Source: Actinoplanes sichuanensis
Lineage (GTDB): Bacteria > Actinomycetota > Actinomycetes > Mycobacteriales > Micromonosporaceae
Assembly: GCF_033097365.1 (NCBI RefSeq)
Contig: NZ_AP028461.1
Location: 4,030,001 to 4,094,000, forward strand
DNA: 64,000 bases
Reading direction: 5' to 3'
How positions within the stretch are numbered: position 1 is the stretch's first letter; the number at the start of each line of letters is the position of its first letter. This document shows positions 42,224 to 56,626 of the stretch, piece after piece. The notes beneath the pieces are model-generated. The model saw only the letters and a list, made by a program, of their open reading frames with translations, was not told the origin of the DNA and did no database searches. A program made the translations under genes and the position numbers.

Positions 42224-43456
42224 TCAGACTCGGCGTAGGGTTCGGATCGCCGGGGTCAACAGTAGGGCGGCGCAGACCAGGATGCTTACGGCGGTGGAGA
42301 CTGTCAGCAGGGTTCGTGGGGCGATCAGTTCGACGGTCGGGCCGACCAGGGCCTGGCCGACGGCGACGCCGGCTACCGAGCCGGCCACCTCGTAGGCGGT
42401 GACTCGGTTGAGGACGTCCGGTGCGACCTGGGTCTGTACGCTCGTGGACCACATCACCGACCAGAACGCCCAGGCCATTCCGCCTACCAGGTGACCGGCC
42501 ATGATCAGGGGCAGCGGCAGGTCGAGTGTCACGGTCAGTGGGATGAACACGAAACCGGTCAGTGCCAGTCCGCCGGCGGCCAGGGGGCGGGGTGGGCGGA
42601 GCCGGATCGCGATCAGTCCGCCGAGGACCGTGCCGGCGCCGAGGCCGGCCATCACCCAGGCGTAGGCGACGTCGCCGAGGCGGTCGCCGATCAGGCGGGA
42701 GGCGAGCGGGACGTACGGTCCGAAGACGGCGATGCCGAAGACGACCCAGATCAGGATGACCGACCACATCCAGGTTCGGGAGCGGAACTCCGACCAGCCT
42801 CGGCGGAGGTCGGCCAGGACCGTGGAGGGCTGCCGGGCCCGTACCGGGGACGGTAGCCGGATGAGGGCCAGGCACAGGCCGCTCAGCAGGAACGTGCCCG
42901 CGTCCACGGCGTACACGGTCCCGGCGCCGGCGGCCACCATCAGCAGGCCGGCCAGGACCGGGCCGCCGACCTGGGTGGCCGCGTCGGCCATCTTCAGGGT
43001 GCCGTTGGCCCGCTGCGGGTCGGCCGCGACCAGCGGCACCATGCCGTTGACGCCCGGCTGGAACATCGCGGCGGCCACACCGGCCAGGAACGATGTGGAC
43101 AGCAGCAGCCAGAACGGCGGGGTCCCGGTGAGGAACGCGACGGCCAGGACGCCCTGGGTGACGATGCGGACGAGGTCGGCGCCGATCATCATGGTGCGGG
43201 CGCCGACCCGGTCCGCGAACACGCCGCCGAGCAGTACGAAGATCACGAACGGTGCCGTCCAGACGGCCAGGACGTAGCCGACGCCGGACACGCCGTAGAC
43301 GGCGCCGACGGCCAGGGCGGTCACCACGGGCAGCATCGTGTCGCCGAGCAGGGACACCGTACGGGCGCCGAAGAACAGGGTGAAGTTCCTGGTCCACAGC
43401 CGGTCGGGCAGGGTGGTGGGAGGCTGTTCGCCGAGTTGCGCGGGAGTCACGGTCAC
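42224..43456 (-). CDS. MFS transporter (MFS_3-type exporter)
   Basis: 410 residues from GTG 43456 (GTG 43450 is also possible). Twelve membrane helices are visible, starting FTLFFGARTVSLLGDTMLPVVTALAV. The cytosolic loop after helix 2 carries FADRVGARTMMIGADLVR, the MFS A-motif region. The family includes drug and siderophore exporters. It is divergent from the GlxA-type regulator, which probably controls it. Confidence 0.9.
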   Translation of the reverse strand: MTVTPAQLGEQPPTTLPDRLWTRNFTLFFGARTVSLLGDTMLPVVTALAVGAVYGVSGVGYVLAVWTAPFVIFVLLGGVFADRVGARTMMIGADLVRIVTQGVLAVAFLTGTPPFWLLLSTSFLAGVAAAMFQPGVNGMVPLVAADPQRANGTLKMADAATQVGGPVLAGLLMVAAGAGTVYAVDAGTFLLSGLCLALIRLPSPVRARQPSTVLADLRRGWSEFRSRTWMWSVILIWVVFGIAVFGPYVPLASRLIGDRLGDVAYAWVMAGLGAGTVLGGLIAIRLRPPRPLAAGGLALTGFVFIPLTVTLDLPLPLIMAGHLVGGMAWAFWSVMWSTSVQTQVAPDVLNRVTAYEVAGSVAGVAVGQALVGPTVELIAPRTLLTVSTAVSILVCAALLLTPAIRTLRRV

Positions 43457-43522
43457 CCATTGTCGGCGCGGCGGGTGTCGCCCGCAGGAGCCGAGCGGGA
43501 CGCCGGTGGGTACATTCGCGCC

Positions 43523-45302: not shown

Positions 45303-46001
45303 CTACGGCAGGCGGGGCAGGAGCCCGGCCGCCTGCGCCGCGGTTGCGATCCGGCTGCGGAGCTCGTCGTCCGGCGGGACATCGGTCTCCAGATATGTGG
45401 TCAGGGTTCGGAATGCGTCGTCCAGCTCATGCAGGGCCGGGTCGGCGTCGTCTGCGGCAACCGCGTCGATCAGCACTCGGGCGCTGCGGGCCAGTTCCCG
45501 CTGGTACACCTCGACGATGCCGGGCCAGCCGTGGTGCACCCAGTCCGGCCACGCGTCGCGCATCCTCTCGACGTCCACGCACATCCGCAACCGGTAGAAC
45601 ATCACGCCGAGGTCGTAGTAGCGGCGACGCTCCGGGCGTACGTGGCTACCGGTGATCTGGATCAGCAGCTCGAACGTGTCACGGATGGATCGGCGCCGGC
45701 GGTTGAGCGACGGGTCGACCATGGTCTGCGGTCGGGTCCAGGTGGTCAGGTCGCCGGCGGCGTAGTCGGCGGCTTCGATCAGCATGGTGGGGACGCGCAA
45801 CTGTCGTAGCTGATGCACGGTCCATCGGCGTACGGTCCCGAGTTCCTCGACCGTCTCGGGGGGCAGCGCGAAGGCCACGAAGTACAACTCGCCGAAGATC
45901 TCGTAGAACTGCTCCAGGTCGAAGCCCAGCCACAGTTCCCAGGGTGGTTCCGGTGACAGGGCGGTGGGTGGGTTCAGATCCCGGTCGACGGATTCGGTCA
46001 T
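45303..46001 (-). CDS. CHAT-module partner protein, short form
   Basis: 232 residues, helical, without signal or membrane segment. It is a clear paralog of the N-terminal half of the protein at 50019: RRYYDLGVMFYRLRMCV here against VRYYDYGVMICRIRLCV there, followed in both by a Y-x-x-E-L-(A/S)-R helix. Start overlaps the stop of the CHAT gene (45998-46001), so it is made with that protease. Likely an adaptor or target-recognition partner in a CATRA-type system; the family name is from memory. Confidence 0.72.
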   Translation of the reverse strand: MTESVDRDLNPPTALSPEPPWELWLGFDLEQFYEIFGELYFVAFALPPETVEELGTVRRWTVHQLRQLRVPTMLIEAADYAAGDLTTWTRPQTMVDPSLNRRRRSIRDTFELLIQITGSHVRPERRRYYDLGVMFYRLRMCVDVERMRDAWPDWVHHGWPGIVEVYQRELARSARVLIDAVAADDADPALHELDDAFRTLTTYLETDVPPDDELRSRIATAAQAAGLLPRLP

Positions 46002-48019
46002 GGCGCACCGAACAGTTGGAACGCGGCTACGGTAGCCGCGCTGCCGGTCGCTGCTGCGGCCTGCCGCAGCGACTCTGCGGGCCGTCCGGTCTCAGCGTAG
46101 AGCCGGTGGAAACGGCGCATCAGGTCGGCGGTGACGGCGTCGTCGACCTGCCACAGTGGTGCGACGACGGTGCGGGCTCCGGCGGCGAGGAGAGCCCCGG
46201 GCAGCCCGACGTACTCGGCGCCGGCGAGGATCTCACCGGTCCCGGCGTGGCAGGCGCCGAGTACGACGAGCGCGGCTGAGAGCGGGGTCCGGCGGACGTC
46301 CGCGTACCAGAGCAGCGCGCCGTCGGCCAGTCGCAAGCCGGAGTAGTCCGGGTTCTCTGGAAGGTAGAAGCCGTGGCAGGCCAGATGCACGACGTCTGCG
46401 CCGCCGGCTTCCTGCCGATAGCGGTCCGGGGTGGCATCGGCGCCGGTGTGCACCGTGGATTCGGCGTAGTGGTGGGCGGCAGCCTTGCCCTCGCGGCGTG
46501 CGTGCGGCAGGGAGCCGTCCGGGTCGGCGAACGCGAGTAGGGTGGATGCCGGTCGGGCCGGGCTCTGCAGGATCCGCGCCAGGATGCTCAGGCTCGGCAC
46601 TCGGCCGACTCGATACCGTGCCGTCAGCTCCGGGTCGGCGGGTGTCGCCCACGCCCCCACGTCCGGGACCACGAACAGCCGGGCGCCAGGCGCCACCCGT
46701 GTGCCGACCGGGTCTTCGGTGATTCCGGCGCGATCGATCAGCCACCTGTCCCGCACCAGCACGGCGTCGTCTTCGTGGAGTAACTCGCGGAGTCGGGCGA
46801 CGGTCACCGGGGGCGGGATCTCTCCGGTGGCCCGGATTCGCTGCGCGGCGATGCGTTCCCGGTCGCGCTGTCGCCGTAGGCCGACGGTGAGTAGGTGCCG
46901 GTTCGCGTCGCTCGGCCGTGCCGCGTAGCTGCGGACGAGATCGTCGAGCGTGCCGCCGGCCGCCGGGGCGGTGGCGGCCAGCAGCGATCGGCTGGCATTG
47001 CGCTCGAGCACGTCGACGGCTTCGGCACCGGTCACACAGCGTGCCAGCGCCTCGTAGACCGGCGTGTATACGGCGGACAGTCCCCGATGAATCGTCCCGG
47101 ACCGGGTCGTCGCTCGCATCCGCTCGGAGCGTGCGACCAACGTTTCCAGGCGTTCTCGTAGGGCGGGGGACGGTGGCGCCTCGGCGAGGGCGGGCGGTAG
47201 GGCGGACAGTTCACCGGTGTGGCCGGTGGCGACCGCTAGGCGGTGCTCGCAGAGTGGGATCCAGGTCGCGGCGTCGGAGCCGAGCTTGGTCGTGTTCTCG
47301 AGGCACCATTCCAGTTGGGCGCGGGTGTACTCCGGATCGTCACTCTGCACCGCCTGCACGTAGGTGAACCACCACGGCATGCCGCGTGGGTCCACCACGC
47401 CGAGCCGGCCGATGGTCTGCGTCAGAAGCGGTTCGTCGCCGAGCCCGAGCGCGGCCACCAACAGTCGACGGAGCGCGGCGGCCAGCCCGGTGTCGTCCCT
47501 GGCTCGGGAGAGTGCACGGACGGCGCGGTCGGCGTGTTGGGCGAGCCGCTCCAGGGAACCCGGCGCCGGCCACACCGTGCGGAGGATCAGGTCGCAGAGC
47601 ATGCCCTCGGCGTGGCCCTCCGAACGCGGATCACCCGTGTCCCGGGCCGCTTCGGCGGCGCGGACGAGGATCGATTCGGCCTCCTCCACGCGGTCCGCTG
47701 CGATCAGTTCCCGCGCATGCTGTAGGGCGTCGGTGTCCGCGGCGTCCGCCGGTGCGGTTCGGTGCTGGGGCTCCTCGAAGGGGGGCAACCGGCTCAACAT
47801 GTCCCGCAATGCCTCCAGGTAGCCGAGCGAGAGGCCGGATGCCGCCGCGTCCTCGATCAATTCCCCGACGAAAGCGGTGGCGGCCGGGGTACGCAGTGCG
47901 TGTTCGGCCTGCACCACCTCCGCCATCTCCGCCGGGCTGGAGGCGTGCATGAGGGCGCACACCGCGTAGACGGCCGCGTGCCGCGCCTCCAGGTGATCCT
48001 CGAAGAACATGTGCTGCAT
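45998..48019 (-). CDS. CHAT-domain protease with helical N-terminus
   Basis: 673 residues. Residues 1-330 are helical, TPR-like (ARELIAADRVEEAESILVRAAEAARDTGD). The C-terminal CHAT domain has the catalytic His in VVHLACHGF (His549) and Cys in LGACHAGTG (Cys590), with EYVGLPGALLAAGA and VVAPLWQVDD after it, the standard CHAT layout. It is a caspase-like Cys protease. It follows the caspase gene by 3 bases and overlaps its partner gene, so the three form one transcript. Confidence 0.92.
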   Translation of the reverse strand: MQHMFFEDHLEARHAAVYAVCALMHASSPAEMAEVVQAEHALRTPAATAFVGELIEDAAASGLSLGYLEALRDMLSRLPPFEEPQHRTAPADAADTDALQHARELIAADRVEEAESILVRAAEAARDTGDPRSEGHAEGMLCDLILRTVWPAPGSLERLAQHADRAVRALSRARDDTGLAAALRRLLVAALGLGDEPLLTQTIGRLGVVDPRGMPWWFTYVQAVQSDDPEYTRAQLEWCLENTTKLGSDAATWIPLCEHRLAVATGHTGELSALPPALAEAPPSPALRERLETLVARSERMRATTRSGTIHRGLSAVYTPVYEALARCVTGAEAVDVLERNASRSLLAATAPAAGGTLDDLVRSYAARPSDANRHLLTVGLRRQRDRERIAAQRIRATGEIPPPVTVARLRELLHEDDAVLVRDRWLIDRAGITEDPVGTRVAPGARLFVVPDVGAWATPADPELTARYRVGRVPSLSILARILQSPARPASTLLAFADPDGSLPHARREGKAAAHHYAESTVHTGADATPDRYRQEAGGADVVHLACHGFYLPENPDYSGLRLADGALLWYADVRRTPLSAALVVLGACHAGTGEILAGAEYVGLPGALLAAGARTVVAPLWQVDDAVTADLMRRFHRLYAETGRPAESLRQAAAATGSAATVAAFQLFGAP

Positions 48020-48022
48020 CGG

Positions 48023-49861
48023 TCATCGCCCGCATGGGCAGGTCGTGCCGCCCGGACACAGCAGGAACGTCACTTGTCGGATCGCGAACCGTGCCGTCTC
48101 CGGTCCGGTCCAGAATTCGCGTGTGCCAGACCGCAGCATCGCCGCGAGCGTTCCTCCCGCGCTCGGGCCGCCGCGCTCGGTGACTCCTTCGCGGGCTAGG
48201 CCGCGAAGGTCCTGTGGCACGTCGGAGAAGACCGCCAGGAGCGTCTCACAGCGGGGTCCGGCGGGCGGCACCGCCGACGGCCAGAGCAGCGGGAGGCCCG
48301 GGTCGTGCCCGCCGGGTCGCTCGCCGATGGCTCGGGTGTCGCCGGGGGCGAGCGCCATCCCGGCCGGTTCGGACTCGTTCAGGATCGTGACTCGGCCCGC
48401 GAGACCGAGGTCCAGCACACTCGCATAGACGGTGGCCGAGGCATCGGCGCCGCTGGTCACGGCGATGCGGATTCCGTCGCCCCGGTGAAGGACGACGCCG
48501 TCGGTAACCGGCCCGGTGGGACCGTCGAGGCGCAGTTGCACGGGCGCGTCCAGGTCGCCGGGCTCGTCGCCGAGGCTGCGTAGTCGCGCCGAGGTGACCA
48601 GGCCGTCGACCTGGCGTCGCAGCCGGACCGGGTCGGGCTGCGGGTCGCGGTGCAGAGGGAGACCGGCGCCGTCGTGCAGCAGGTAGCCGGCGGAGACCGT
48701 CACGATCGCAGCCTCCTCGCCCTCCGTCACGACACGGACGCCCGGGATCGAGGTCAACGCCGCGACGATCGCGTCGTCCGCGTGGGCTACCCGCACGCAG
48801 ACATCCTGGCCGGTACTGCGCCAGGGGTGCGCCGTTCCCTCGATGGTGACCTCGCTGGGAGCCGTCAGTGCGGCCGCCTCCCCCTCGAGGTGGCTGACAC
48901 GGACGATCGGCGCGTCCGGGTCCGGGGATCGTCCGGCGGGAGCGAGCAGAAGTTCATCGCCGGGACGGACGCCGTGTAGGCGGGCGCCGTCGATCCACGC
49001 CTGGCCGGTCATCGTGTCCACCCGGATCGGGTGTGGCCGCCCGGACGGGCGCAAGGTCGTCGTGAACGCCACGCGGTCGGACGGGCCCGCCGCCTCCGGT
49101 CGCTGCAGAGGGTTACGGGCCATGACCGGCAGACGGGCGCGGTCGATCGCCTCCGTCCAGGTCACGTACGGATCGTCGCGCAGGATCGGCATCAGCGCGG
49201 CCGTGAGGTAGCCGTGGGAGCGGCCCAGTTCGGGGGACCAACCCTCCATTGCGGTCTCCAGAGAACCGCACGCCATCACCCGTACCGCGTCGGGGTTGGC
49301 ATCGTTCCATCGGGCGTCCGGATGGGCGGCCTGCAGTCGAGCGAAGGCGTCCGCCGCCTCCTGCCACCGCCGCGTCACCGCCGTGACCGGCCAGTCCATC
49401 TCCCAGCCGCGCGCCCGGGGGCCATCCCCGCGGGCCATCCGCGACGAGTAGCAACAGTCCAGGATCGCGGTCACGTTCGGGCTGCGCAGCGTCAGCCGAC
49501 ACAGCAGCACGCTCAGTTCGTCCGCCAGAATTCCCCGAAAGTCCTCTGTCCTGGTTTCGGCCACGTCGGTCGGTAGCAGGAATCGCAGTTCTCGAGGCAC
49601 ACCGGGCAGGTCCGTCGTCGCGCGCCCGCCGTGGCCGGAGTAGTAGACGACCACGGCGTCCCCCGGCCGGGTCGCGGTGATCAAGTCCTCGAACGCTTCG
49701 AGCACGCCGGCCCGGGATGCCGAGCGCTCCCGCAGCGAGGTGACCTCGAAACCACGCGACTTCAGGACGTCGCCGGTCAGGTCGGCGTCATCGTGGCAGC
49801 CGAACAGGCCGTGGATCTGACTCGCGACAACCAGAGCACGATCCGTCACATCGCTCACCAT
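48023..49861 (-). CDS. Caspase-like (C14) protease with DUF4384-like C-terminus
   Basis: 612 residues. The caspase fold is at 5-260: His77 in VVYYSGHGG and the catalytic Cys in AILDCCYSS (136 or 137), with SHGYLTAAL later. A variable beta-rich section follows. The end (GVVLHRGDGIRIAVTSGADASATVYASVLDLGLAGRVTIL) resembles DUF4384, and a Cys-rich tail (LCPGGTTCPCGR) closes it. No signal peptide. It is the first gene of the second CHAT module. ATG 49861 is chosen; GTG 49846 is possible. Confidence 0.9.
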   Translation of the reverse strand: MVSDVTDRALVVASQIHGLFGCHDDADLTGDVLKSRGFEVTSLRERSASRAGVLEAFEDLITATRPGDAVVVYYSGHGGRATTDLPGVPRELRFLLPTDVAETRTEDFRGILADELSVLLCRLTLRSPNVTAILDCCYSSRMARGDGPRARGWEMDWPVTAVTRRWQEAADAFARLQAAHPDARWNDANPDAVRVMACGSLETAMEGWSPELGRSHGYLTAALMPILRDDPYVTWTEAIDRARLPVMARNPLQRPEAAGPSDRVAFTTTLRPSGRPHPIRVDTMTGQAWIDGARLHGVRPGDELLLAPAGRSPDPDAPIVRVSHLEGEAAALTAPSEVTIEGTAHPWRSTGQDVCVRVAHADDAIVAALTSIPGVRVVTEGEEAAIVTVSAGYLLHDGAGLPLHRDPQPDPVRLRRQVDGLVTSARLRSLGDEPGDLDAPVQLRLDGPTGPVTDGVVLHRGDGIRIAVTSGADASATVYASVLDLGLAGRVTILNESEPAGMALAPGDTRAIGERPGGHDPGLPLLWPSAVPPAGPRCETLLAVFSDVPQDLRGLAREGVTERGGPSAGGTLAAMLRSGTREFWTGPETARFAIRQVTFLLCPGGTTCPCGR

Positions 49862-50018
49862 CCTCGCCGTCGGCAGTCGGCTCCATTGAGGATATGGATC
49901 GAGCGGGGCCGTTCGGTGGCCTCGCGGTGTGAACGGGCCGAACGGTTCGCGGTCCGGCACGAACGGGCGGCCCATTCCGAGTAGCCGGCCACGGTGATCG
50001 GGTCTGCGGCGGCGTTTG

Positions 50019-51263
50019 TCAGGAAGCGTCCATGCCGAGCGATTCCCGGATGGTTCGGCGAGCCTGGTGCAAGCCGGATGGCAGATCCGTTTCCGCACGC
50101 TCGACCAGGGACTTGAGTGGAAAGTCGTAAAGTTCTCCGGCCGACTCCGGATCCGTGAGCGTGAGATACGAATGGGCGTGAGCGGCGATCAGGTACCTGG
50201 CCGGGTGGTAGGGCCCGTAGTAGTACAGCGCGGTGTTGACGATGTCATGAAGCATCAGGGTTGCCGTGCCGGAGCGGCCGACAGCGACGTAGCCCGCGGC
50301 GAAGTCGACATGGACGTGCAGGGTGAGAGGGTGGATCGGGCCCAAGACGGCACGGTACATGTGGAGCAGATGTCGCATCCGCTCGAGGAAGCCCTCGACG
50401 TCTCCGTCCGCCACCAGCTGTTTCGTCTGGTCCAGCAAGAACGCGAGCCGCTCGCGATCGTCGGAGGAGTGCGGGACGGGCAGAGGTAGCCGATCCTCCT
50501 CTGCCAGCGGTTTCGGATGCCGCAGCCAGACCAGTTCCTGTTTGGACCGGTCGCTGCCGCGGAAACCGATCGCTGTGGTGAGTTCCCGCAGATGTCCGGT
50601 CAGGTCGTCGGTGACGAGGGCCTCACCGGTCCGCCAGATCGCGAGATAGTCGGTGAACGCTTCGAAGGCCCGGTCCAGGTGGATCTGACCGGGGTCGCGC
50701 TGCCGGGTGGGGCTCTCCTGCGCGACCATCGTCTGGAGGACGGCCGTGGCGCGTGACAGTTCCGCGTGATAGGTCTGTTGGAGGTGGGAGAACTGGTCCG
50801 CCAGGTTCTCGGGGAGCGCCGGGATCAGGCGGATCATTCGTACGCACAGCCGGATCCGGCAGATCATGACGCCGTAGTCGTAGTACCGCACCCGGTGACT
50901 GTCGATCGCGGTGCGCACGAGATGTTGCATGTTCTCCATCTCCGCGCTGATCTGCACTCTGGACTGCGCCCAGTCCGGTCCGAACCGGGCGAACTCGGGG
51001 TGCCCCGGCAGTTCGGCCACGATCTCCTCGAACCGATCCACGACGGTCGGATCCACTCCCAGCTCGCGGATCCGGTCGGCGGTCCATCCGCACATGTCGT
51101 GCATCCTCTCCAGGACGAAGTCCGGAAAACCCCGAGTGATGATCACGTCCGCCTCGGTGTAAGCGCAGTAGACATCCTCCAGGTCGTGGCCGATCTGGAG
51201 TTCGTCGGGCGGTCTGGCCAGGGTCTCGGGCGGAGGTGGCTCGATGTCCCGTGCGCCGGTCAT
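50019..51263 (-). CDS. CHAT-module partner protein, long form with TPR tail
   Basis: 414 residues. The N-terminal 230 residues match the 232-residue protein at 45303. The C-terminal part has TPR_10/12-like units: LHMYRAVLGPIHPLTLHVHVDFAAGYVAVGRSG and NTALYYYGPYHPARYLIAAHAHSYLTL. This combination fits the predicted caspase/TPR repeat-associated proteins. Its start overlaps the stop of the CHAT gene upstream (51260-51263). The paralogs suggest duplication of a two-gene unit. Confidence 0.75.
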   Translation of the reverse strand: MTGARDIEPPPPETLARPPDELQIGHDLEDVYCAYTEADVIITRGFPDFVLERMHDMCGWTADRIRELGVDPTVVDRFEEIVAELPGHPEFARFGPDWAQSRVQISAEMENMQHLVRTAIDSHRVRYYDYGVMICRIRLCVRMIRLIPALPENLADQFSHLQQTYHAELSRATAVLQTMVAQESPTRQRDPGQIHLDRAFEAFTDYLAIWRTGEALVTDDLTGHLRELTTAIGFRGSDRSKQELVWLRHPKPLAEEDRLPLPVPHSSDDRERLAFLLDQTKQLVADGDVEGFLERMRHLLHMYRAVLGPIHPLTLHVHVDFAAGYVAVGRSGTATLMLHDIVNTALYYYGPYHPARYLIAAHAHSYLTLTDPESAGELYDFPLKSLVERAETDLPSGLHQARRTIRESLGMDAS

Positions 51264-53710
51264 GACGCACCGGGAAATCTGTACGTGGCTGGTGCGCCGA
51301 ACAACTGGAAACCCGCCCAATGATAAGGATGGGTCGTGCTCGGATCGGCAGCCATCGCCTGCTGTGCCTGCCGCAACGCCTCGGCGGGCGGGGCGAACTT
51401 CTGGAGGGCCCGATAGAAGTGCCGCATGAGCGTTTCGGTCGAGGCGTCGGAGACCGCCCACAGGGGTGCCAGCACTCCCTGCGCTCCGGCGGCGAGAAAC
51501 GCGCCGGGGAAGCCGACGTACTCCGAACCGAACCGCATCACGCCGGTCCCCGCGTGACAGGCCGCCAGAACGACCAGCCTCGCGTTGAGCTCGTAGCGTG
51601 CGAGTTCGCCGTACCAGAGCACCTCGGGACGGTCGGCGGGACCGGCGAAGTGTAGGGCGGAGAAGTCCGGATCATCGGGGAAGAAGAACCCGTGGCAGCC
51701 CAGATGGGCGACGTCGGCATCGGCGAGGTGGGCCATCATCATGTGGTAGTCGAGCCGATCCCCGGTCACGGTGAACGCGTCGATGAACGTGCTCGCCGCG
51801 TAGTCGATCTCCGCTCTGGCGTGCGGCAGGCTGCCGTCGGGATCACCGAATCCGACGAAACGTTCGAGGACGCGCTTGAGCCGTGGCTTGGTCAGCAGGT
51901 GCGCCAACAGGGTGAGGCTCGGCACGTAGCTCACTTCACGGGTCGCGGAAAGCATCGTGGGCGCCAGCACTCCCAGGGGGATCCGCCATAGCGACCCGTG
52001 CGGCACGAAGAACAGCCGGCACCCCCGCGGAACGTGATCTGAGACCGGTTGCAGGAGATGGGCCGTGAGCCAGGAGAGCGCCTCGGAGCCGGCCTGCGCT
52101 CCGCCCAGCGGGCTGGACAGCTGAGCCAGTATGCCCTCGACCACCTCGTCGACCTCCTCCACGCGGAAACGGCCGATCGCCCGGCAGCCGCCCCCGCTGA
52201 TGAGGAAGATCGAACCGTCGGCGCCGCAGACCACCACGCGGTCGTTCTCGGCGAGCAAGGCCCGCACCGACCAGGTCGGCATCGGTGACGTGGCCGTGGT
52301 GAGGCCGGGCGTGGCCGCCAGGAGCCTTTGCTCCTGACGCTCCAGTGCATCCCGCTGGTCGCCGAACACCCGGGTGAGCAACCGACGGTTCGGTTCGGTC
52401 GGCGCGACGACGTACGTCCCGAGCGCCTCCTGAAGCACCGTCGAACGGGAGTCCTCCCACACCTGCGGATGCCATTGTCGCCACAGCTTGTGCATCGCCG
52501 TCTGCGCGAGCAGGGCCCGACTCGCGGCGAGCTCGTGGACGTCGATCGCCTCCTCCGCGCCACGCAGCGTTTCGGCGCACCGCTCCGCCGTCCGGTAGGT
52601 GATCTCATGGGCGTCCGAGAGCTCTCGCTGGAGGGCCTGCGACCGCCCGTACTTCCGCAGCTCCTCGACCTTGCGAAGGATCTCGTCAAGTCGACGCGCC
52701 GCCTCCTCGGTCGGGCCGTCGGCCGCCACCTCGAGTGCGGTCACCGCGGCCCGGAAGAACTCGGAATCACCGTCACCCAGGGGTATTCGTCGGCCTTCCA
52801 GGAGTGCCAGCTTGCCCTCGCACATCTTGCGGTAGAAGTCGGCGTGGGAGCCGAGCAGGTCGGCCGACTCGACGCACCACTGCAGCCCAGTGATCATCGG
52901 CTCGATCTCTTTCGCGGTCATCGCGGCCGCGTAGGCCCGCCACCACCGCGCCTGATCCTCATCCAACCGTTGCAGGCGATTCAGCGCGCTTTCCAGGTTC
53001 CGCTGGTCGGCGAGGTCGGTCAGGACGGTGATCATCGCCACGACCGCGTTGGCTTCGCCGGTGGGGTCGGGAGCCCGGCGGTAGGCGTCCGCACCGCGGC
53101 GGGCGTGTACCAGCATCCGCTGACGGGTTCCCTTCACCATGTGGGCGGTCCTCGACAGCAAGGTGAACAGGCCGATCTCCGCACTGCCCTCGACCGAGGC
53201 CTCGCCCTCGGCCCGGGCCAGGCGAACGGCCTCGACGAAGGCCGCCCTGGCCTCTTCGATCTGGCCGCGGTCACGCAGGGTACGCGCCCGGTCGTCCCAC
53301 TCCCCGGCGTTCTGCGGCCGGTCCGCTCGAAAGTCCGCGTCGGGCGGCTCCACCGGCATGTCATCGGCCTCGACCGCGCCCGTACGGACGGTTCTGATCA
53401 TCTCGAGGTGCGCGGTGAAGAACCGCTCATAAGAGTCGTCGGGCAGGGGCACGGTGCGAACGAAGTCGATGATGCGGTCCATCAGCCGTTCGGCCTTGGG
53501 ACTGCGGAACTCCTCGCGCTCAGCGATCATCCGAAATCTGGCGCGCGGACTGCGTTCCGTGACCAGGCTCACCACCGCGTCGCGGACAGATACCTCGGTG
53601 CTCTCGCCCATTCTCGACTGCAGAAGCCACGCCGCCTGAACGATGTCTGTGACGAAGCGCGCGACCTTGCTGAGATGTTCCTTCTCCGGGTCGCGCGCGG
53701 AACCCTCCAT
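51260..53710 (-). CDS. CHAT-domain protease with long helical N-terminus
   Basis: 816 residues from ATG 53710 (TTG 53725 in frame). The first 480 residues are helical repeats resembling TPR (ARTLRDRGQIEEARAAFVEAVRLARAEG). The CHAT domain has His673 in VAHLGCHGF and Cys718 in LAACHAGTG, with SEYVGFPGAFLAAGA and LAPLWAVSDA after it. It is about 140 residues longer than its relative at 45998, mostly in the repeats. First gene of the cluster, divergent from the LacI regulator. Confidence 0.92.
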   Translation of the reverse strand: MEGSARDPEKEHLSKVARFVTDIVQAAWLLQSRMGESTEVSVRDAVVSLVTERSPRARFRMIAEREEFRSPKAERLMDRIIDFVRTVPLPDDSYERFFTAHLEMIRTVRTGAVEADDMPVEPPDADFRADRPQNAGEWDDRARTLRDRGQIEEARAAFVEAVRLARAEGEASVEGSAEIGLFTLLSRTAHMVKGTRQRMLVHARRGADAYRRAPDPTGEANAVVAMITVLTDLADQRNLESALNRLQRLDEDQARWWRAYAAAMTAKEIEPMITGLQWCVESADLLGSHADFYRKMCEGKLALLEGRRIPLGDGDSEFFRAAVTALEVAADGPTEEAARRLDEILRKVEELRKYGRSQALQRELSDAHEITYRTAERCAETLRGAEEAIDVHELAASRALLAQTAMHKLWRQWHPQVWEDSRSTVLQEALGTYVVAPTEPNRRLLTRVFGDQRDALERQEQRLLAATPGLTTATSPMPTWSVRALLAENDRVVVCGADGSIFLISGGGCRAIGRFRVEEVDEVVEGILAQLSSPLGGAQAGSEALSWLTAHLLQPVSDHVPRGCRLFFVPHGSLWRIPLGVLAPTMLSATREVSYVPSLTLLAHLLTKPRLKRVLERFVGFGDPDGSLPHARAEIDYAASTFIDAFTVTGDRLDYHMMMAHLADADVAHLGCHGFFFPDDPDFSALHFAGPADRPEVLWYGELARYELNARLVVLAACHAGTGVMRFGSEYVGFPGAFLAAGAQGVLAPLWAVSDASTETLMRHFYRALQKFAPPAEALRQAQQAMAADPSTTHPYHWAGFQLFGAPATYRFPGAS

Positions 53711-54913: not shown

Positions 54914-55066
54914 TCGGTCGGGCGGGGCCCGTTCTCGGCGCAGCGCCGGGTCATCGCGAGGTGGCCTGGTAATAGGATGCCAACTTTTCCGTTCGCCCCC
55001 TACGGGAATCGACGAGTGACGATACTGTCCGGTGTGGATCTGTTCGATACACAACGGGGGAAAGTG

Positions 55067-56626
55067 ATGACGGTAAAGAAGCGAAGGCTGCTCGGCGCCC
55101 GGGCGACGGCGATGCTGGCGGCCTCGGTCCTCGGGTTGGCCGGTCTGGCCGCGGCCGATCAGGCGTTGGCCGGTGCGGTCCCGACGGCGGACGCGGCGTA
55201 CGGGTATGTGGTCAAGGTGGCTGTCGGAGGCGATCGGGCCTGCACCGGGGTGCTGGTCGATCCCAACCTGGTGGCCACGTCGAAGGAGTGCTTCACCGTC
55301 GGGTCGGCCGTCGCGGTCACCGGCCCGGCGCCGGCCGGCAGTAGGGTGACGACCCGTTCGGATCAGCCGACGGCCGCGCAGACCGTGGTGGTCGACTACC
55401 TGCACGTGCGCGACGACCGGAACCTGGTCGTGGCGCATCTGGCCAAGAGCGTGACCGGGGTACGGGGCAGCGCTCCGGTGTCTGCCGCCGCCCCGGTGGC
55501 CGGGGAGACGTTGCGGGTCCTCGGCTTCGGTCGGACCTCGACCGAGTGGGTGCCGGCGCTGCCGCACACCACTCAGATCTCGGTGCAGGACGTCTCGGCG
55601 ACGGGTCTGGCGGTCATGCCGCTGGCGGACGGCACGATCTGCAAGGGCGACGCCGGTGGGCCGGTGATCCGGGAGAAGAGCGACGGTACGGCCGAACTGG
55701 TCGCAGTGCTCAGCACCTCGCGACAGGGTGGGTGTCTCGCCGAGACGAGCACGTTGCGCGACGCCACGTCGACCCGGGTCGACGGGCTGGGCGACTGGGT
55801 CGGCCAGCTCAAGGAGTTCGAGCTGACCGGCCGGGTGGAGGCCGCCGGCGGGACCGGATGTCTGGTCGTCAAGGTCGGCAGCGGCACGTATCAGCTGGCC
55901 GGGGGTGACGCCGCGGTCGTCAAGGCGGGGCAGACCGTTCATGTGTACGGCTATCGGGCCCCGAGCCCGGTGGGCTCCTGCACCCAGGGTCTCCGCTTCC
56001 AGGTCACTCAGGCGTACGCGGTGGAGACGGTGCTCGGCACGGTGACGCAGGGGGTCGAGGGGTGCCTGCTGCTGTCGTCCGGTGGTGTGACGTACCGTCC
56101 GATCGATGGTGATCCGGCCGTCGTCAAGGTGGGCGCGAAGCTGAGCATCGCGGGTTACCCCGTCCCTGGGGCCAGCAAGTGTGGCCAGGGCACGGCGTTC
56201 CGGGCCCTGTCGGTGACGCCGGCGAAGTCGGTCAGTCTGCGTGCCCGGGTCAACGGCAAGTACGTGACCGCGGATAACGGCGGGGCGAACCCGCTGATCG
56301 CCAACCGGGACACGGTGGGCGGCTCGTGGGAGAAGTTCGACTCGTTCGAGCTGGGTGACGGTGTGATCGCGTTGCGGGCGCAGGTGAACGGCAAGTACGT
56401 CACGGCCGACGGTGCCGGTGACCGGGAGTTGATCGCCAACCGTGACTACGTCGGCGGGACGTGGGAGAAGTTCCTGCTGGTCCGTAACGCCGACGGCAGC
56501 GTCAGCTTGAAGGCGGTGGTGAACGGCAAGTTCGTCACGGCCGAGGACGCCGGGGTCAAGCCGCTGATCGCCAACCGGGACACGGTCGGCGGTTCGTGGG
56601 AGAAGTTCGATCTGAACGCCCTCTGA
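55067..56626 (+). CDS. Secreted trypsin-fold pseudoprotease with fascin-like repeats
   Basis: 519 residues; GGGGGA precedes ATG 55067. Signal peptide ends near residue 37. Residues 44-265 follow the S1 trypsin pattern but the catalytic positions have changed: canonical TAAHC is TSKEC (Glu74 for His), the Asp region reads RDDRNLVV, and GDSGGP is GDAGGP (Ala196 for Ser). Two bridging beta units follow, then three repeats (RVNGKYVTADNGGANPLIAN type) resembling fascin-like beta-trefoils. It is probably a binding protein, not a protease. Confidence 0.85.
   Translation: MTVKKRRLLGARATAMLAASVLGLAGLAAADQALAGAVPTADAAYGYVVKVAVGGDRACTGVLVDPNLVATSKECFTVGSAVAVTGPAPAGSRVTTRSDQPTAAQTVVVDYLHVRDDRNLVVAHLAKSVTGVRGSAPVSAAAPVAGETLRVLGFGRTSTEWVPALPHTTQISVQDVSATGLAVMPLADGTICKGDAGGPVIREKSDGTAELVAVLSTSRQGGCLAETSTLRDATSTRVDGLGDWVGQLKEFELTGRVEAAGGTGCLVVKVGSGTYQLAGGDAAVVKAGQTVHVYGYRAPSPVGSCTQGLRFQVTQAYAVETVLGTVTQGVEGCLLLSSGGVTYRPIDGDPAVVKVGAKLSIAGYPVPGASKCGQGTAFRALSVTPAKSVSLRARVNGKYVTADNGGANPLIANRDTVGGSWEKFDSFELGDGVIALRAQVNGKYVTADGAGDRELIANRDYVGGTWEKFLLVRNADGSVSLKAVVNGKFVTAEDAGVKPLIANRDTVGGSWEKFDLNAL

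Follow-up and report, generated by a model that had tools for sequence, protein, structure and literature searches.

Organization of the locus

A cluster of five genes in the actinomycete Actinoplanes sichuanensis encodes two CHAT cysteine proteases, a caspase-family protease and two related helical proteins, here termed partners A and B. The cluster lies in the window, the whole stretch of 64,000 nucleotides that was analysed (positions 4,030,001 to 4,094,000 of contig NZ_AP028461.1). The genes occupy 45303–53710 of the window, all on the minus strand, in the order CHAT1, partner A, caspase, CHAT2, partner B (Table 1). As judged from the sequence, the core of the module appears to be a cysteine protease of the TPR-CHAT kind whose translation is coupled to that of a dedicated partner, and the window appears to unite two related modules of this kind.

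A first-pass annotation made from the sequence letters had proposed the five genes and their order, and all are present as it described them. The CHAT1/A and CHAT2/B junctions both read ATGA, an overlap of 4 bases each, and 3 bases separate the caspase from CHAT2; these tight junctions, too, had been correctly described. A gap of 157 bases parts partner A from the caspase, so two transcription units are plausible. Parts of the gap match the DNA 5′ of the caspase of Dactylosporangium siamense, a relative labelled Micromonosporaceae like the source genome, in a pairwise alignment of the two sequences. D. siamense has no CHAT1–A at that locus, yet the gap DNA is partly conserved, which makes it a candidate regulatory element. 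A search of the gap for a sigma-70-type consensus promoter found none, and terminators at the locus are no more numerous than in shuffled sequence.

Table 1. Features of the five-gene locus (window coordinates)
Feature	Position	Strand	Description
CHAT1	53710-51260	(-)	816 aa; TPR-like N-terminus and C-terminal CHAT cysteine protease, PF12770 E=6.7e-50
CHAT1 catalytic residues	His673 near 51692-51694; Cys718 near 51557-51559	(-)	H/C motif
Partner A	51263-50019	(-)	414 aa; predicted helical N-domain 20-231, low-confidence linker 236-262, TPR tail 267-409
Motif of partner A, linker/TPR edge	50469..50495	(-)	around R-x-P-L-P-V-P-H; invariant residues in family alignment
A-caspase gap	49862..50018	(-)	candidate promoter/leader of the caspase-CHAT2-B unit
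Caspase	49861-48023	(-)	612 aa from ATG; caspase-family protease, Peptidase_C14, PF00656 E ~4.6e-11 to 5.8e-11
Caspase catalytic residues	His77 near 49631-49633; Cys136/137 near 49451-49456	(-)	SGHG and DCC motifs
CHAT2	48019-45998	(-)	673 aa; CHAT cysteine protease, PF12770 E=1.4e-38
CHAT2 catalytic residues	His549 near 46373-46375; Cys590 near 46250-46252	(-)	H/C motif
Partner B	46001-45303	(-)	232 aa; same predicted helical domain as A, without TPR tail

The three proteases

The two CHAT proteins are 33% identical over 767 aa. In CHAT1 the PF12770 match spans residues 548–810, numbered on an 821-aa frame, and the N-terminal TPR match in Pfam is weak (E=0.02). The numbering that the first-pass annotation had given for the catalytic His and Cys is exact for both CHATs and for the caspase, and both residues are retained in all nine intact CHATs of the module set. 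The source genome, a single contig of 12.14 Mb, contains 11 CHAT matches and nine caspase matches in total; three CHATs and three caspases are found at ∼4.82–4.90 Mb of that genome.

In the caspase, Peptidase_C14 is followed by a C-terminal half without an assigned domain. The DUF4384 that had been placed on this protein did not hold up: no match was obtained at E≤10, nor at E≤1 for the caspase together with three relatives. Matches in the PDB include 3bij (E=1.6e-6) and metacaspases. The SGHG and DCC motifs are present, and the catalytic His and Cys retained, in five of five module caspases.

The partner family

Partners A and B share 29% identity over 210 aa (E=2e-21), which bears out an earlier proposal that they are paralogues and that A carries a TPR tail. 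The tail is kinesin-light-chain-like (PDB repeats at E=2.5e-12), and the predicted structure agrees. The partner domain is predicted to be all-helical. The AlphaFold2 model of A has a mean predicted local distance difference test score (pLDDT) of 81.1, with residues 236–262 falling below 50, and the model of B has a mean pLDDT of 88.3 and a predicted template modelling score of 0.85.

By sequence comparison the partner family matches nothing in the libraries used. Neither A nor B finds a Pfam match at E≤10 or a PADLOC match at E≤1, NCBIfam yields solely matches far under the cut-off, and A has no match at E≤0.001 in a viral structure library. At E≤1 the partner profile hits nine PDB sequences, and none of these is named Csx30. 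The family is rare: at least 27 proteins were found, from actinomycetes where a source is named. Micromonospora haikouensis, M. sp. WMMD987, Amycolatopsis sp. NPDC051071, Streptomyces europaeiscabiei and Dactylosporangium cerinum are among the sources. The A family comprises 15 proteins including A itself, and all 15 have the same four residues, L261, V263, P264 and H265, at the linker/TPR edge.

Recurrence of the module in other genomes

Beyond the window, nine partner genes were collected at eight loci (L008, L009, L010, L011, L012, L053, L093 and L094) in seven genomes. Five loci came from a scan of a genome collection with one degenerate pattern, searches of their whole genomes added one more Saccharothrix copy, and 390 Saccharothrix-family genomes contributed two further genomes. 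The loci were located through the partner gene, so partnerless CHATs of the same clade would escape. A CHAT gene lies directly upstream of eight of the nine outside partner genes, and the pair overlaps by 4 bases (ATGA or GTGA) in all ten junctions counted: two in the window, two in L009, and one each in L008, L053, L010, L011, L012 and L093.

Seven of the eight outside CHATs are intact. In L093 an internal deletion and a frameshift have cost the CHAT its catalytic His, whereas the partner is undamaged. At L011 the partner is split across two frames, by frameshift or sequence error, and the contig ends inside the caspase. L094 holds a partner fragment without a CHAT and looks like a remnant left after rearrangement; it follows a gene for a TPR-rich protein and another whose GGDEF-like match stays below threshold (L094:3720-8523). 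The first-pass annotation had named two outcomes that would speak against it, namely homologues scattered singly and catalytic residues that vary among homologues. Both are mostly absent, L094 being the exception to the first and L093 to the second.

A caspase adjoins the pair in four of the eight outside loci: it is divergently oriented at L008, lies downstream at L010 and L011, and upstream at L012. The chance expectation is 0.001–0.004 per locus within 6 kb. The caspase is a real yet optional companion of the CHAT–partner pair, and it is not an obligate target, because no caspase was found beside the pair at the other four loci.

Two genomes are instructive with regard to the composition of the window. 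D. siamense (L012) has the caspase–CHAT2–B unit alone, in the same order and at 79–83% identity, and a single partner gene of this family was found in its genome. Actinomadura bangladeshensis has CHAT1–A, with a caspase of its own. Because the two units occur separately in these genomes, the window is an apparent union of two module types. Other genes were observed close to these pairs. Another CHAT-domain protein (PF12770, 1.7e-12) is encoded ∼2 kb upstream of caspase–CHAT2–B in D. siamense (L012:1363-3771, minus strand). In two related genomes a protein of ∼1500 aa is encoded convergently with the partner gene (L009:11247-15629 and L093:9885-14516, both minus strand); the L093 copy is a TPR-CHAT protein by Pfam and the L009 copy has CHAT similarity. 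In that lineage the long protein could be an extra component.

Evolution and selection

The CHATs and their partners have diverged in parallel. Across nine pairs, CHAT and partner distances are correlated with a Mantel r of 0.87, and none of 20000 permutations reached as high a value; the L053 partner was entered without its first six residues. In the CHAT tree of the module set the A-type and B-type proteins are supported at 99/99 and 100/100, respectively. B-type support is 93/88 or 95/90 in larger CHAT trees, and 100/100 in the partner tree. Set against eight of the nine other CHATs of the source genome, the nine module CHATs form one clade (96/99, or 99/99 with one Saccharothrix outgroup row); the ninth, a short match at 3201165, was left out of the CHAT trees. 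Because the module CHATs form one clade, the two units of the window are best viewed as old sister lineages and not as the outcome of a recent local duplication.

Comparison with D. siamense gave ratios of nonsynonymous to synonymous substitution (dN/dS, NG86) of 0.25 for the caspase (dN 0.117, dS 0.470), 0.20 for CHAT2 (dN 0.099, dS 0.503) and 0.25 for B. These values indicate purifying selection on the three genes. The recurrence of the gene order in other genera, combined with these ratios, indicates that the locus is more than a chance assembly.

Distribution and genomic surroundings

All distribution figures are lower bounds, as few candidates were scored per genome (5 to 10) or the 7998 top word-sharing candidates were used. 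With A as query no match was obtained in 59 other relatives, and the B profile found none in 393 other genomes of the class (six candidates scored per genome) and none in 249 genomes of the A. bangladeshensis family besides A. bangladeshensis itself (ten candidates per genome). A profile of the partner domain matched at least three of 390 Saccharothrix-family genomes, Saccharothrix included (seven candidates per genome), and two genomes of that family have eroded copies. Profile A3 gave matches in 132 of 354 family genomes. Those listed are nearly all to the generic TPR tail of A; among them, most of the helical domain is covered only in the two genes of the window and in a genome taken to be that of D. 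siamense. Neither A nor B was matched in 72,556 plasmid records. Genes that are rare, patchy and sometimes eroded fit accessory conflict systems, but the recognized neighbours of the locus do not.

An empty site was sought in 67 genomes. The LacI and trypsin-domain neighbours find their best DNA matches at separate positions or in separate genomes, and for the SDR flank 12 of these genomes yield nothing beyond short matches or matches on other contigs, so that no clean insertion was demonstrable. The trypsin-domain protein (54977-56626, plus strand) has repeated C-terminal units and ricin-lectin/DUF7910 matches; DNA relatives exist in some genomes of the same genus, the best of them without the LacI neighbour.

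Comparison with known systems

An architectural parallel is offered by Csx29, the protease of the type III-E CRISPR Craspase. Csx29 is reported to be an allosterically gated TPR-CHAT protease with a dedicated substrate, Csx30 (PMC10028731). The window pairs likewise combine a TPR-like region and a CHAT protease with a dedicated partner gene. The catalytic His and Cys of Csx29 are 43 residues apart (H615/C658 in PMC10028731), as against 45 in CHAT1 and 41 in CHAT2. The resemblance does not extend to family membership: the Csx29 family model NF041237 (NCBIfam) scores 23.6 and 25.2 bits here against a cut-off of 300. Moreover, type III-E CRISPR differs in that no CRISPR gene was recognized among the neighbours scanned with Pfam (ten slices, 42224-43481 not counted). 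In the PDB, 7x8a and further chains under the name CHAT domain protein, which we take to be Csx29, are matched at E=0.82–0.88 with a profile and are not among the matches listed for CHAT1 alone.

The PADLOC model BovA, presumably describing the Borvo protein, matches weakly at this locus (E=0.0014 and 0.00097). Borvo is a single defence gene not known to have a partner, unlike the CHAT–partner pair. The two are alike in the CHAT domain, PF12770, which is listed for Borvo in PMC10952713.

For the caspase, two systems invite comparison. In EACC1–caspase two-gene systems a caspase with a C-terminal extension occurs in actinobacteria (PMC7159879); the extension and the actinobacterial host are shared here. 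The EACC1-associated caspase model NF047832 scores 36.2 bits against a cut-off of 140, and no EACC1 domain is named in the Pfam results for the five proteins, though the library was not checked for such a model. The second system is Canu, made up of the caspase CanA, the helper CanB and the pro-nuclease CanC, in which CanA reportedly co-purifies with CanB and goes on to activate a third component (PMC12799240). A caspase, a helper protein and TPR-rich loci are common ground; the difference is that the helper's protease is the caspase in Canu and a CHAT protease here. No nuclease family was recognized in the five proteins by Pfam, with no Canu-specific model used. More generally, the bacterial caspase-like defence systems listed in the same paper have as their working partners components of type III CRISPR, gasdermin/CARD, NLR or Thoeris, or nucleases (PMC12799240). 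Among the listed titles and abstract openings, from a collection in which subscription journals are thinly covered, there was no description of this CHAT clade paired with such a partner.

Interpretation and alternative explanations

The strict pairing, the overlapping junctions and the parallel divergence indicate that a CHAT and its partner very probably form one functional unit. We also lean towards a partner that regulates or adapts its CHAT: the two would associate, with the partner either keeping the protease off or linking it to a trigger, and the TPR tail of A would probably add a further recognition surface. Upon the trigger, which may be infection or damage as the first-pass annotation had suggested, the CHAT would become active and cut a local target, most plausibly the adjacent caspase, on the model of an initiator caspase acting on an executioner. 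Damage by the caspase to proteins of its own cell would then lead to arrest or death. This downstream role of the caspase is put forward tentatively, and an outcome in defence against phages or in another conflict is a serious possibility, somewhat short of probable. Taken as a whole, the best explanation is that two related, rare modules have been united, each a CHAT with a regulatory partner and with a downstream caspase as an option; belief and doubt are evenly balanced on this composite. The pairing, which recurs in a few distant relatives, could serve as an uncommon and as yet nameless switch for self-destruction or defence. As module I (CHAT1–A) has no caspase of its own here, both pairs may feed the single caspase between them. 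That two paralogous sensor–protease pairs, each a TPR-CHAT enzyme and its cognate partner from a new family of helical adaptors, converge on one executioner caspase, in an undescribed two-input protease relay built from two separately existing lineages, is a more speculative proposition and on present evidence a doubtful one.

Several observations weigh against this explanation. Nine related pairs underlie both the permutation test and the trees, and genes that descend together in one genome give a correlation even if their products never touch. The A-type partners are not resolved as a clade (3% of bootstrap trees), though their CHATs are. The caspase is not adjacent in L009, where the nearest is ∼11 kb away, nor in L053, and tblastn with three module caspases as queries revealed none at L093 or L094. 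The partner fragment of L094, the broken CHAT of L093 and the split partner of L011 also count against it. The recognized flanking genes of the window, encoding SDR oxidoreductases, LacI, TetR, histidine kinases and the trypsin-domain protein, do not make up a defence island, and no nearby defence gene was recognized in the Pfam neighbour scan.

These same flanking genes lend some weight to the strongest competitor, ordinary regulatory proteolysis in development, envelope or stress signalling of multicellular actinomycetes without any role in conflict, as do the chromosomal position of the locus and the purifying selection on it. However, a developmental role would predict conservation, whereas A went unmatched in 59 relatives and the B profile in 393 genomes of the class (six candidates scored per genome), and two Saccharothrix-family genomes contain eroded copies. 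We regard this alternative as rather improbable.

It is also unlikely, and slightly more so, that the partner is the dedicated substrate of its CHAT, as Csx30 is of Csx29, with the linker of A being cut, the helical domain freed and a fragment acting as the signal. In Csx30 the cut is reported to fall within a flexible loop (PMC10028731), and the low-confidence linker of A (residues 236–262) joins two better-predicted domains and ends in the motif with the four invariant residues. The motif, however, adjoins the first TPR helix and may be merely structural. B, which stops shortly after its helical domain, lacks both linker and tail, so a substrate role cannot be general for both modules.

A toxin–antitoxin-like arrangement is about as unlikely as a substrate role. 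Here the CHAT would be toxic alone and neutralized by the partner, and the caspase would either be a passenger or act as a second effector. In favour are the strict pairing of the two genes, their overlap and their codivergence, and both the patchy distribution and the wrecked CHAT beside an intact partner at L093 would suit a toxin that is the first to be lost. Against it, most antitoxins are smaller than the partner, the TPR array of A suggests sensing or scaffolding, and carriage on mobile elements was not seen in the plasmid records.

The first-pass annotation had favoured a CATRA system, named in PMC8195603 as a caspase-dependent ternary conflict system. A caspase with a TPR-bearing neighbour is, in name, common to both, and a CATRA locus does exist in D. 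siamense. The three signature domains are another matter. The Pfam models CATRA-N, CATRA-C and CATASP miss all five proteins at E≤10, whereas the three models match the D. siamense locus L078, which served as positive control (2e-46 and 1.5e-30 for the CATRA-N/CATRA-C protein at L078:7564-9756). Aligned with two CATRA proteins by hhalign, the partner profile gave a probability of 1.1%, and the candidate relationship was rejected. The source genome yielded no match to the small protein CATASP (PF20271) or to CATRA-N, in searches in which no control genome was matched either. The CATASP model has four matches in three of five relatives, none adjoining a partner gene, and the CATRA-N match at L078 comes from hmmscan and not from the genome search. 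The caspase (PF00656) is the one CATRA component found, a CATRA identity is extremely improbable, and the locus is not CATRA. In D. siamense the CATASP and CATRA-N/CATRA-C proteins (L078:7224-9756) lie beside ABC transporter genes, on a contig other than that of the CHAT–partner module.

Equally improbable is a chance neighbourhood of unrelated protease genes, for although CHAT and caspase matches are common in this genome, order, overlap and codivergence are kept across genera and D. siamense repeats the caspase–CHAT2–B order.

Implications

A protease conflict module in the general sense is a plausible, if unproven, reading of the locus, of which the sequence shows the anatomy and the intact catalytic residues. 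The recurring core comes down to two genes, one for a CHAT protease and the other for a dedicated partner whose family has no name, and it thereby provides a small setting in which to study how a protease is restrained and switched. As the window combines two paralogous pairs with one caspase, whether CHAT1, CHAT2 or both cut the caspase is directly testable in vitro. If a CHAT does cut the caspase, the module would stand as a clean counterpart, among bacteria, to the pairing of initiator with executioner caspases.

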